A DNA stretch of 64,000 bases from contig MU657168.1 of NCBI GenBank assembly GCA_026770575.1, positions 623,807 to 687,806 of the forward strand, in the 5' to 3' direction. How positions within the stretch are numbered: position 1 is the first letter of the stretch; the number at the start of each line of letters is the position of its first letter. Below, piece by piece: positions 7,487-48,444 of this stretch. The position numbers and the translations under genes were made by a program. This stretch comes from Pelagophyceae sp. CCMP2097 (taxonomy: Eukaryota; Sar; Pelagophyceae). The notes below the pieces were generated by a model, which saw only the letters and a list, made by a program, of their open reading frames with translations, had not been told where the DNA came from and made no database searches.

Positions 7487-9330
7487 ATGGTCTTCCTCTT
7501 CGAGGCGCGCGCGGGCGCGGAGGCGAACTATGTCGTGTACATGGGCGCGGACAAGCACGAGAACGAGGGTCTGATCGAGTGGGGTTGGTTTACAGACGTC
7601 TGGTTCCACGTCGACGGCTTATCATCAGCGCACGTTTACTTAAGAGTGCCTTTGGCAAAGGCGCTGTGCGCCTGCACGAGCAAGCGCTGTTCCTGCGTCT
7701 TGGACAGCATCCCGGACGAGACGGTGGAGGAGATGTGCCAGTTGGTCAAAAACAACTCCATCGAGGGCTGTAAGAAAGCCTCAGTCATGGTCGTCTTCAC
7801 GCCCTGGAGCAACCTGCACAAGGACGAGACGAGAATGGTCACTGGCTCCGTGCGTATCCCCACGTCCTCCCTCTGAAAAAGGCGCCCTTTGAGCCTCACG
7901 CCAGCGCCGATCAGGTCGGCTTCCACGACTCCAAGCTGCGGCGTTTCCGCCGCGTGGACAAGAACAAGGAAATTGTGAAGCGCATCGAGAAGACGAAGAC
8001 GGAGGCCACTCCAGATTTGCAGCGCGACAAGCTCGCGTTCGACGCCCGCGTCGTCGTCCTCCGCAAGCAGCGCCTGACGGAAGCGCGCGCGAGCGACCTT
8101 GAGCAAAACGGCGACTCGCGCAAGGACGCTTTGATGAAGAGGCAGGCGCGCGACGAGTTCCTCGCCAGCGGCGGCTACCACGCGCCCGCGTCGAGCTACG
8201 CGTCCGCGCCGCCGCCGCCGCCGCCGGCGAGCAGCGTCGTCTTCGACGACCAGCTGCAGACGGACATGCGCAAAAAGGCCGCCGGCGACGCCGCCTCGGG
8301 TGTGGACAAGGGCTTGGACTCGCTCATGTCGGCTTTAGACGTGAAAAAAGGCGACGTCAAGAAGGCGCGGCCCAAGCCGGCGGCTACAGTCGCCGACGAC
8401 GAGCCCGCGCGGCCGCAGTGGCAGGAGGAGGACGCGCGGCGCGCCGCCGAGTCCACGGGCGAGGCGCAGTGGCTTCGAGCGCGCGGCTACGGGAAGGCCG
8501 CCGTCGACCAGGCGCTGCTGGCGACTCGGTCCAAACTCGACGCTTTGGCGCGGCTCTACCGCGCCGACGACGCCGACGCCGGCGTCGGAGCGGACGACGC
8601 GCTCCTCGCGCAGGCGGCCGAGGAGCGCGGCGAGGAGCATGAGGCGTTGGAGGCCATCTTCGAAGATGATCTGGAGGCCTTGGGCGAGGCGGGCGACTTC
8701 GGCCTCGCGCCGCTGCCGGGCTTCGAAAACGCCGCCGACGCCTCGGCGCCGCCGCTCCGCTTTGAATTCTACGCGAGCGTGGCGCCCGCGTACCCCGCGG
8801 GCGGCGCCGCGCACTTGCTGCCCGTTGCCGCAGTCGTGGGCGGCGGCCTCACCGAGGCGTCGCTGCTTCGCGTCACGCGCGCGCTGAACGCGCACGCTCT
8901 TGCAAACGCGGACGCGGGCCAGCTCTTCTTCGACCTTGCCACTCTGGCAGCTGAAGAGGCCACCACTCTCCTCGAGCAGCAGGCTCTAGAGGCGCAGCGC
9001 GCGGCGGCCAAGGTCGCCGCCGTGGAGCGCGCGGCGCTCCTTGGCACCGCGGCCGCCGCGCCGCCGCCTGCTGCAGAATTCTCGGAGGAGGAGCAATTCA
9101 AGAGGGACCTGGCACGAGCGAAAAAGGCTTCTGACGCAAAGGCGCGCCTCGGTTGCTTTGCCGAAAAGCAAGAGTTCGGGCGGCCCGCCAACTTTAGCAT
9201 CCGCGGCAGCGGCGAGGCGTGTGCCGACTCGTTTGGCGCACAAGCGCCAAAGGCGCCCAAAGTGGCCAAGCCCTCGCGCATGGCAGAGGACTTTGACGAT
9301 CTCATCGGCGTCGTCAGGGTCGCGCGGTGA
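7487..9330 (+). CDS. CCDC25-like (NFACT-R) protein fused to an RWD domain
   Basis: Exons 7487-7849 and 7915-9330, with a 65-base intron; 592 residues. Residues 1-130 match CCDC25: MVFLFEARAG start, IEWGWFTDVWFHVDGLSSAH, VFTPWSNL and, just after the splice, VGFHDSK. A lysine-rich helix follows, as in CCDC25. Unlike CCDC25 (about 208 residues) the protein continues through a proline run, a UBA-like patch near residue 310-350 (ARGYGKAAVDQAL) and an RWD-like domain starting EERGEEHEALEAIFEDDLEAL-type sequence at about 370, with a charged C-terminus. NFACT-R domains occur in ribosome-quality-control factors and RWD domains in GCN2/RWDD1, so a translation-related role is a reasonable inference. No intron signal suggests two separate genes. 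The ATG overlaps a palindromic CCATGG. Confidence 0.88.
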
Positions 9331-9404
9331 TGGCCATATTAACGCACGTACCGAAAGGCCGGATCGTGAACCGGATCGTGAACCTGTTAGAAGGACCACT
9401 CCTG

Positions 9405-9482
9405 GGTAGCGCCGCCGTGCGTGGTTCGGGTGCCGAGGCGGAAGAGCGCCCCGGGACCGTCATGACTTCGGCGCGCGCGCGG
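9405..9482 (-). promoter_or_regulatory. Candidate SECIS element in the 3' UTR of the GILT gene
   Basis: About 30 bases after the stop of the GILT gene the minus strand holds ATGA (9463-9460). Then comes a stem of 12 pairs with one C-C mismatch and one G-T pair, a 6-base loop, and GA (9427-9426) opposite the ATGA. This is the geometry of a eukaryotic SECIS quartet with helix II. Below it, GCGCCG and CGGCGC can form helix I across an internal loop. The apical loop is CTCTTC and lacks the usual AA, although a CC variant becomes available if the top pair opens. Pairing was done by hand. Confidence 0.65.
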
Positions 9483-9494
9483 GGAGCGAGGGAA

Positions 9495-10144
9495 CTAGAT
9501 GACGCGGGGGACGACTCTTGAAGAGCCGCAGACGTTCGCCTTGGACCCCGCGGCGCACGCGGCTGCCGTGACCGCGTCGGCGGTTCGGCCCGCGAGCGGC
9601 ACCCCATCGACGGCGAGGGCGGGGATCGTCGCCGTTTTCGGGTACTGCTCGTTGAAGAGCTGGGACGCCGCAGAAAGGAGCTGCGCGCCGCGACGGCCGT
9701 TTGCGCACTGCTCCACGGCGTCGGGCGAGGATGCGGCGCACTTTTCCGCGAGCGCGTCCGCATTCGTGAACGCGTGCGTGTCGGCGCAGCGCATAAACTC
9801 GACCGCGCACGCGTTGGCGGCTTGGAGCGACGCGCCGCAGGCCTCGATCGCGCAGGCAAAGACTTTTTCCGCGGCGCAGCCGCGCTCGTCGACGCAGTCC
9901 GCTTCAGGGTCGCGGACGGCCGGGATTATTCGGATAGTGTCCGAATAGTGGAAGTCCGCCCAGAGCCGCGGCAGGTCCGTCGCGCCAAACTGCCGGCAGC
10001 CTAAACGAGGCTCGGTGCAAGGATCGCGAAGGCATCGCAACACAACCTGATACGTGCCTTACCTGGTCACTCGGCGCCAAAGTAGTACGATATCTCGACC
10101 GCCGAGGCCAGGGACAGCATGAACAGGACGGCAAAGGCGCGCAT
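9495..10144 (-). CDS. GILT-family thiol oxidoreductase, predicted selenoprotein (in-frame TGA)
   Basis: Exons 10144-10063 and 10000-9495; the 62-base intron has GTAAGG and TTTAG ends. The product has 195 residues. It begins with a signal peptide (MRAFAVLFMLSLASA) and then EISYYFGAE, TGA, Pro, Gly, Cys, Arg, Gln, Phe. Human GILT has YYEALCGGCRAF here, so the TGA (10069-10067) takes the place of the first cysteine of the CXXC redox site and would be read as selenocysteine, giving UPGC. The rest matches GILT: the Cys-rich stretch DCVDERGCAAEKVFAC and the block CANGRRGAQLLSA followed by IPALAVDGVPL. GILT enzymes reduce disulfides in secretory or lysosomal compartments. Donor and acceptor agree only if the TGA is kept in the exon. 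A SECIS-like hairpin follows the stop codon. Start-to-start distance to the divergent helicase gene is 182 bases. Confidence 0.8.
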
Positions 10145-46742: not shown

Positions 46743-48444
46743 TCAGTGCGTTGCGTCGGGCGCGCCCCAGAAGGAGGAGATCGACTCGGCGGTCTCGCGC
46801 GCCTTGAGCTCGACGAGGTCCTCCATAGCGCCGCCTTGTCCGCGCCGGAAGCCGTAGACGGGCGGGGCGAGTCTGGAGCAGTGGCGCGAGAAGAGCGACA
46901 GCGTGTTCGACCCGGCGTCCTTCATGACGATGAAGTCGCCGGGCTTTAAAGCCGTGGGCAGGTCCAAGTCCTTTGCCATGATATCTCCCTGGAAACAGAG
47001 GGGCCCGCCGACGACCGTCTTCGCCGCCGAAGCCGCCTCTTCGGCGGAAAAGGCGGTGCCGTCGGCGCGAAAGGCCTCGAAGCGCCTCTTGTGGTCCGTG
47101 GTGTACGCCTGGCGCACGCCGAGGTCGGCGCCAAAGTGGATGATGGCCGTGCGCCTTGAGGAATGCTCCTTGACCCACTCGATGCGGCTCGCGGCAAACG
47201 CAGTCTTGGCGTGCAGCGACTGGCCAAACTCGGTGACGACCTGGAACGCGCCCGAGAAGAGCTCGGGCGCCGCCGACCGGAGCAGGTCGGCGTACTCTGC
47301 AAAGCTCGGCACGGCCGCGGACGTCAACGCGTCAGAGGCATAATTCGCAGGGAGGCCGCCGCCCACGTCGATGATCTTGACCTGTTGAAAGCCCACGAGC
47401 GCGTTGATCTCCAGCGCCAGGTCCACGGCGACGCGCACGCCCGCGGCCAGCATGGCGCCGCCCATGCCGCCAGAGCCCACGTGCACGTGCACCTGCGGGG
47501 AGATTCCGGGCTTTTTTGTAAATGACGGGGCCGGCGTGCCTCTGTTTCCCAGATTGGGTTTCCCGGTCGCCGACGCGGCCGCTTGCGGCGTCGAGCCACT
47601 TTGACGTCTGGTACGCCTTGAGCACCTCGGCCTTGGTTCCCGCGTTGGAAATGTCACAGCCGAACTTGGAATCCTCCGTCGACACGCTCAACGCCTAGGT
47701 CTTCCGTCGACACGCTCAGCGCCTGGGCCGTCGGGGCGAAAGGTGGCCGCGGGAATACTCACGGCGATGGTCCCCGCGCCGACGCGCGGGTTGATTCGGA
47801 CGCCGACTGAGCCGTTGATGTGCTCGAGCGTCTGCGCGCGCTTGAGCTCCTGCAGGTTGTCGAGGTTGGTGTATATTCCGTGCAGCAGCGCAAACTCGAG
47901 CTCGGAGAAAGTCTTGCACGGCGAGTCGAAGACGATCATAGAGTCGGGGATGCCGATGCGCCGCGCGTGCAAAAGCTCGCCGATCCTGCGCGGAAACGCG
48001 TTTTCCGGGAGAGGCACCTCTTTGAGCGACGCCAACACTCGTGATCGACGCCGGCGCGCGCGACGCGGCCTCGACGCCAAAGCCGTGCTCGAAGTGCGCG
48101 CGCCGCAGCATCGTCGTCAGGCAGTTCGACTTCATCGCCTAAAGGGCGGCCGCGCTCTCTCGAAGGGCGGAAGCGGGCCTCCCCGACGGCGCGCCACGCA
48201 CGGAGCAGTGCTTGAACGTCGGCCCGAACGCGTCCTTGCAGGCGCGGAGCGTTTCGTCCCACAAGTCGAGGTCGTAGAAGATGGCGACGGGCGCGTCGGC
48301 GACGCCCTTGGAGTCGAAGACGGCGGGCTTTGTTGCAAGGGCGTGGCGCAACACCGGCGAGACGTCGGCGAGGGCATGCATGCTCATCGTGCGCGGCGAA
48401 GTGACCCGGCGAGTGAAGAGCTGCCGGAAGTGCACCGCGAACAT
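46743..48444 (-). CDS. Fold-III PLP-dependent decarboxylase (diaminopimelate/ornithine decarboxylase family)
   Basis: Five exons: 48444-48202, 48138-48062, 47985-47763, 47694-47587, 47492-46743; 466 residues. The PLP lysine is in AMKSNCLTTMLRR, followed by GVEAAS-IGELLHARRIG, FDSPCKT, VGVRINPRVGAGTIA and TSKFG-like EDSKFGCDIS. HVHVGSGGMG and the glycine loop IDVGGGLP come next. GGPLCFQGDIMAKDLDLP carries the family's catalytic cysteine. The usual EPGR motif reads EFGQ, so the arginine that contacts the phosphate or substrate is missing and substrate cannot be assigned. The N-terminus (MFAVHFRQLFTRRVTSPRT) looks like an organelle leader. Introns 47986-48061 and 47493-47586 need GC donors to preserve the family motifs. 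A 28-base duplication straddles the acceptor of exon 4. Confidence 0.87.
47672..47722 (-). repeat. 28-base tandem duplication containing a splice acceptor
   Basis: TGAGCGTGTCGACGGA occurs twice, 28 bases apart, each copy preceded by an AG (CCAG and CTAG). Only the copy starting at 47694 keeps the decarboxylase in frame. Confidence 0.88.

Follow-up and report, generated by a model that had tools for sequence, protein, structure and literature searches.

The question raised by this locus is whether a TGA within the reading frame of a GILT-like gene is decoded as selenocysteine (Sec). The gene, here called GILT1, lies on the minus strand of contig C5 of Pelagophyceae sp. CCMP2097, in a stretch of 64,000 nucleotides (the window), and starts with the ATG at 10144. 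We consider it very probable that GILT1 is a GILT-family selenoprotein gene, spliced from GTAAGG to TTTAG, in which the UGA at 10069-10067 specifies Sec by way of a SECIS in the 3′ UTR. The reading frame, the alignment column of the TGA, a paralogue, the machinery genes and a hairpin behind the stop codon are present in the genome; from these we infer the splicing, the insertion of Sec, the localisation and the reductase chemistry of GILT1.

Predicted structure of the GILT1 gene

The following features, all on the minus strand, are relevant to the reading of the gene.

10063..10144, minus strand: exon 1 (82 nt), encoding by translation MRAFAVLFMLSLASA, VEISYYFGAE-U-P and the first base of a Gly codon
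10067..10069, minus strand: TGA, proposed Sec codon at position 1 of UPGC (first active-site residue), from translation and alignments
10001..10062, minus strand: predicted 62-nt intron GTAAGG...TTTAG, phase 1, within the Gly codon of UPGC
9996..9998, minus strand: TGC codon of the resolving Cys of UPGC, read from the sequence
9495..10000, minus strand: exon 2, remainder of the GILT domain, with the stop codon TAG at 9497-9495
9990..10099, minus strand: 110-nt intron GTCGAG...GGCAG of the public model M885DRAFT_558227 (P0001) of Pelagophyceae sp. CCMP2097

With the two exons joined and the TGA read through, the product is MRAFAVLFMLSLASA-VEISYYFGAE-U-PGCRQF..., in a frame of 195 codons before the TAG at 9497-9495. 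Judged by eye, MRAFAVLFMLSLASA resembles a signal peptide. The GC content of exon 2 by codon position (0.677/0.569/0.844; GC3 84.4%) is of the coding type. The start at 10144 and the UPGC/CRQF join of the original prediction are both present in the sequence, and the intron at 10062-10001 indeed keeps phase and leaves the TGA inside exon 1. It had also been claimed that no other intron keeps phase, which was overstated: the GTCGAG...GGCAG intron of the public model (10099-9990) is in phase as well. That no splice pair removes the TGA and yet retains the UPGC/CRQF join went uncontradicted among the best 25 enumerated pairs listed.

GILT1 and its paralogue as members of the GILT family

A phmmer search of PDB sequences (E<=1) with Cys placed at the TGA of GILT1 returned mouse GILT (6nwx) as the sole match (E=8.9e-7, 32.2 bits). 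The alignment covers residues 15-168 and sets ECPGCRQF of GILT1 opposite the active-site sequence LCGACRYF. A Cys is aligned with the TGA in the plant protein P0008 also, which bears out the placement of the TGA at the first Cys of the GILT CXXC motif. The CXXC-type active site lies close to the N-terminus of GILT1, with UPGC on the aligned column. Using the Pfam GILT family (PF03227), GILT1 with Cys at the TGA scored 21.0 bits (E=4.3e-4), below the cut-off of 22.4, while no match was obtained with X (listing to E=1) or with S, W or R (listing to E=10) at this position. The column appears to want Cys, since among C, X, S, W and R only C yields a match. Cys is the usual partner of Sec. The GILT family signature CQHGX2EC, visible in the homologues, is missing from GILT1, which carries CVDERGC instead, with the spacing of the Cys residues partly kept. 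By its sequence, GILT1 is a divergent GILT. At E<=0.01, its only relative among 882 candidates was P0001, the public model of the same gene.

A second gene, GILT2 (L001:1168-2100; C47, about 76 kb), is located on another contig and is canonical. It reads MMVRLLPCLALAVVASASDRVPVLVLTEAL-U-PGCEDF..., with a TGA at 1258-1260 at the first position of UPGC and with CQHGELEC present. With Cys at the TGA, GILT2 scored 83.6 bits against Pfam GILT; when the genome was searched exon by exon with this family, a single place was found, on C47, and GILT1 was not among the matches. In an alignment in which both TGAs were entered as Cys, the TGAs of GILT1 and GILT2 and the Cys of P0008 coincide. The predicted intron of GILT2 interrupts the Gly codon of UPGC in phase 2, and that of GILT1 the same codon in phase 1. 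Homologues had been proposed as a check on the Sec reading: the paralogue has TGA at the column and those relatives that reach that far have Cys.

The original prediction expected a gene finder to misplace the N-terminus, and the public model is a case in point. In P0001 (179 aa), the in-phase intron at 10099-9990 deletes VEISYYFGAEUPGCRQ, including the whole UPGC segment. If this deposited model were right, GILT1 would be a secreted protein of 179 aa without a redox motif, and the TGA would be intronic. The model keeps the reading frame, but its intron removes the segment that resembles the GILT active site. With it, the score against 6nwx drops from 32.2 to 22.4 bits, so that the skipped segment is worth about 10 bits, and the match to Pfam GILT is lost (none for P0001 in a listing to E=10). 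The predicted intron of GILT2 in the same Gly codon also speaks against this splice, under which the SECIS-shaped hairpin described below would be a coincidence. As splice donors go, GTAAGG is better than GTCGAG, and gene finders commonly dodge the in-frame TGA of selenoproteins. We judge the 9990..10099 intron to be an artefact by which the public model has probably lost the active site, and consider it very unlikely that P0001 is correct. A fold model of P0001, without UPGC, had a pLDDT of 71.5 and a pTM of 0.61; its best PDB match was again mouse GILT 6nwx, albeit a weak one (E=0.015, TM 0.40, rmsd 8.2), followed by ScsC, YjbH and DsbA-type entries with E above 0.5.

Among 78 GILT relatives collected from databases, 39 have a motif of the CXX[CS] type no more than 50 residues ahead of VPYGNA; this class takes in the animal proteins and also many jgi, lgn, ena and mmetsp entries. 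Another 35 (P0002, P0004-P0007, P0010 and others) start 1-24 residues before VPYGNA. The TGA of GILT2 lies 27 residues before VPYGNA and, by that yardstick, all 35 short relatives therefore start past the column. All but one of the short relatives (34/35) are jgi, lgn, ena or mmetsp entries, the remaining one being from Tetraparma gracilis (P0030). Four relatives (P0001, P0003, P0009 and P0067) were left unclassed by the pattern, although P0067 does show CPGC, and P0039 was classed on the wrong motif, its CPYC being located further upstream. If a TGA stood at the column, late starts of this kind would be expected; they could also stem from introns or from contigs that are short, many being near 1 kb. 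No relatives of P0002 or P0001 were found in scans of viral contigs.

A SECIS-shaped hairpin behind the GILT1 stop codon

Two further features lie downstream of GILT1.

9404..9485, minus strand: SECIS-shaped hairpin with ATGA at 9463-9460, an 11-bp helix II at 9459-9428, the loop CTCTTC, GA at 9427-9426 and a GC-rich helix I on both sides
9328..9330, plus strand: TGA closing the long convergent frame 7774-9330

The fold can be written as ATGA-C-[GGTcCCGGGGCG]-CTCTTC-[CGCCTCGGcACC]-C-GA, and its ATGA begins 31 nt past the stop codon. In our own scan, with controls from the same genome, the hairpin has the SECIS quartet core and two helices. The pattern used by SECISearch, as described for that program, asks for an apical loop with AA or CC at a distance of 10-13 nt from the quartet (PMC2375036). 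Neither dinucleotide motif is present in the loop CTCTTC, and this remains the weakest point of the SECIS case for GILT1. The rule may be looser in this genome, because the element of the glutathione peroxidase (GPx) genes L017 and L018 also lacks the motif.

A search of the 3′ UTR for a SECIS had been suggested as a check, and it gave a divided answer: the hairpin was found by our scan, and the Rfam family SECIS_1 had no match at the locus at E<=10. Of four other hairpin-bearing loci, L001 (GILT2), L008, L009 (SelT) and L011 (SelW), SECIS_1 matched L008 only, which was also its one match genome-wide at E<=1 (133 of 365 candidates scored). With L008 as its one match among the candidates scored, SECIS_1 is narrow here. 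Strict scans requiring AA or CC revealed no SECIS within 900 nt for GILT1. A scan of 2.5 kb that accepted AA, CC, AC or CA gave a weak TTGA/CA candidate at 8360, which was dropped because of its position within the convergent frame.

The apical rule was abandoned only after the GILT1 fold had been inspected. Without it, the scan gave one match each at GILT1, L008, SelT, SelW and the GPx loci L015-L018, none at the methionine sulfoxide reductase (MsrA) locus L022 and none at GILT2 at that threshold. The background amounted to 16 matches in the window (both strands) and to 4 in 500 shuffled sequences of 400 nt (0.8%). GILT2 does have a SECIS-like hairpin, at 2196 of L001 (-13.7 kcal/mol), which is slightly weaker than the threshold of this first scan.

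A refined signature was derived from the controls: a C after the quartet, C or T before the GA and unpaired flanking bases, with the energy cut eased to -13, which admits GILT2, and the length limit shortened to 46. It was present at 7 of the 8 control loci (the elements of L017 and L018 being identical), at GILT2 and at GILT1, and 2000 shuffled versions of the 300 nt that follow the GILT1 stop codon gave no match. The window contained four matches including GILT1, that is, three others in 128 kb, and 39 other, partly overlapping loci gave six matches in 244 kb (both strands), representing three distinct sites. The MsrA locus L023, which had not been used in defining the signature, carries a match with its ATGA at 1926, 62 nt after the stop codon of the MsrA frame. 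For MsrA L022 (contig C10), the 1500 nt following the match contained no convincing SECIS-shaped hairpin. The SECIS set did not align well enough in MAFFT to support a covariance model.

The other hairpins in the window that fit the signature are at 47522 (plus strand), 49363 (minus strand) and 11772 (minus strand). No selenoprotein was recognised upstream of the one at 47522.

Selenium use elsewhere in the genome

In-frame TGAs occur at Sec sites in several other families of this organism. Two Rdx genes have been named by their motifs: L009 (SelT) has its TGA at CTSUG, and L011 (SelW) at GUGYG, in frame just ahead of the matched stretch. The AhpC/PrxQ-type gene L008, also named by motif alone, has a TGA in TGGUT. 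All four GPx matches that cover the active site (L015-L018) carry TGA at the Sec site, as does MsrA L022 in GUFW. MsrA L023 (contig C8, 1236-1961) is probably a Sec-MsrA too, with GUFW in an upstream frame and a predicted splice. Cys instead of Sec is found at the site in Rdx L010 and in five MsrA matches (L021, L024, L025, L027 and L030). L017 and L018 (contig C111) are neighbouring GPx genes with identical SECIS-shaped hairpins that are devoid of AA/CC at the usual spacing.

Of the Sec machinery, SepSecS (best E=7e-45) and eEFSec (eukaryotic SelB domain III, E=6.9e-8 and 1.3e-4) are present. A tRNA-Sec was not found in the genome using Rfam (53 of 5768 candidates scored). One search pattern for this tRNA gave 54 matches against 52 in a reversed control, and no tRNA-Sec emerged from the 20 of the 54 that were run through ARAGORN or from the 11 of those 20 that were run through Rfam; a second gave 3 matches against 5. 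A red algal Sec tRNA has been described as missed by both ARAGORN and tRNAscan-SE on default settings (PMC2375036).

Reading of the locus

The hairpin in the 3′ UTR and the TGA at the same column in a paralogue from the same genome support the earlier suggestion of a probable selenoprotein. The GILT1 mRNA would be spliced at GTAAGG/TTTAG, and the UGA at 10069-10067 would be decoded as Sec through the SECIS at about 9485-9404 and the eEFSec/SepSecS pathway. The product, with its predicted N-terminal signal peptide, is probably secreted or lumenal. Its Sec-Pro-Gly-Cys motif would reduce disulfides: Sec would attack the disulfide, and the mixed selenosulfide would be resolved by the Cys located three residues further on.

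No Sec would be involved if the TGA were an assembly error in a Cys codon, or if GILT1 were a pseudogene in decay, interrupted by a premature stop. The TGA is one base away from TGC or TGT, and such a reading would fit with the missing tRNA-Sec and a hairpin lacking AA/CC. It is nonetheless highly improbable, as TGA occupies the same column in two separate GILT genes, the GILT1 frame stays open past the TGA with a GC3 of the coding type, and several families in the same organism have TGA at their Sec sites. A general use of TGA as a sense codon in the CCMP2097 nucleus, as several conserved genes with an in-frame TGA might suggest, can practically be dismissed, because the TGAs recognised in the conserved genes examined sit at Sec/Cys sites and the neighbouring convergent frame ends in TGA; the end of frame 7774-9330, if this is a gene, is consistent with TGA as an ordinary stop next door.

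With GILT1 as a selenoprotein gene, a wider reading can be put forward tentatively, and we think it rather less likely than its opposite: GILT1 might found a divergent pelagophyte branch of Sec-GILTs that lacks CQHG and has a SECIS working without AA/CC, and Sec-GILTs might be frequent in environmental and protist sequences without being recognised. The latter idea comes from the 35 of 78 relatives whose start falls between VPYGNA and the Sec column, as would that of a gene call cut by a TGA.

The public gene model can now be corrected, and a pelagophyte gains two Sec-GILTs together with a group of other likely selenoproteins. The results suggest that genes of this lineage may be overlooked when a SECIS search insists on AA/CC. 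A question that becomes testable is whether the heavy selenium use of pelagophytes is linked to Sec in a thiol reductase that is secreted or lumenal.

Comparison with known GILT proteins

The Cys-containing GILTs of mouse (6nwx) and plant (P0008) align with GILT1 at the active-site column, in the CANG/CATG region and in the C-terminal part. Unlike these proteins, GILT1 has TGA in place of the codon for the first Cys, and its CQHG motif has degenerated to CVDERGC.

A Sec-containing GILT family was described in 2008 from Global Ocean Sampling reads, and the account given there reports a eukaryotic SECIS for one of three such sequences (PMC2398784). By that description, these proteins share with GILT1 that a GILT thiol reductase is a selenoprotein; in contrast, a known organism, intron and genomic locus go with the CCMP2097 genes, of which GILT1 is divergent. 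GILT is also listed among the selenoproteins of Aureococcus anophagefferens in the legend of Figure 6 of PMC5917014. This organism is likewise a pelagophyte, and its GILT is comparable to GILT1 and GILT2 by family name, as listed there. In a survey of algal selenoproteomes, GILT is one of the Sec families with the narrowest distribution (PMC7539508). No paper on selenoproteins of CCMP2097 was found among the papers searched. Going by these sources, Sec-GILT as a kind is already known, since 2008 and from Aureococcus; what is probably new is a divergent, unannotated member of which the public model appears to lack the active site.
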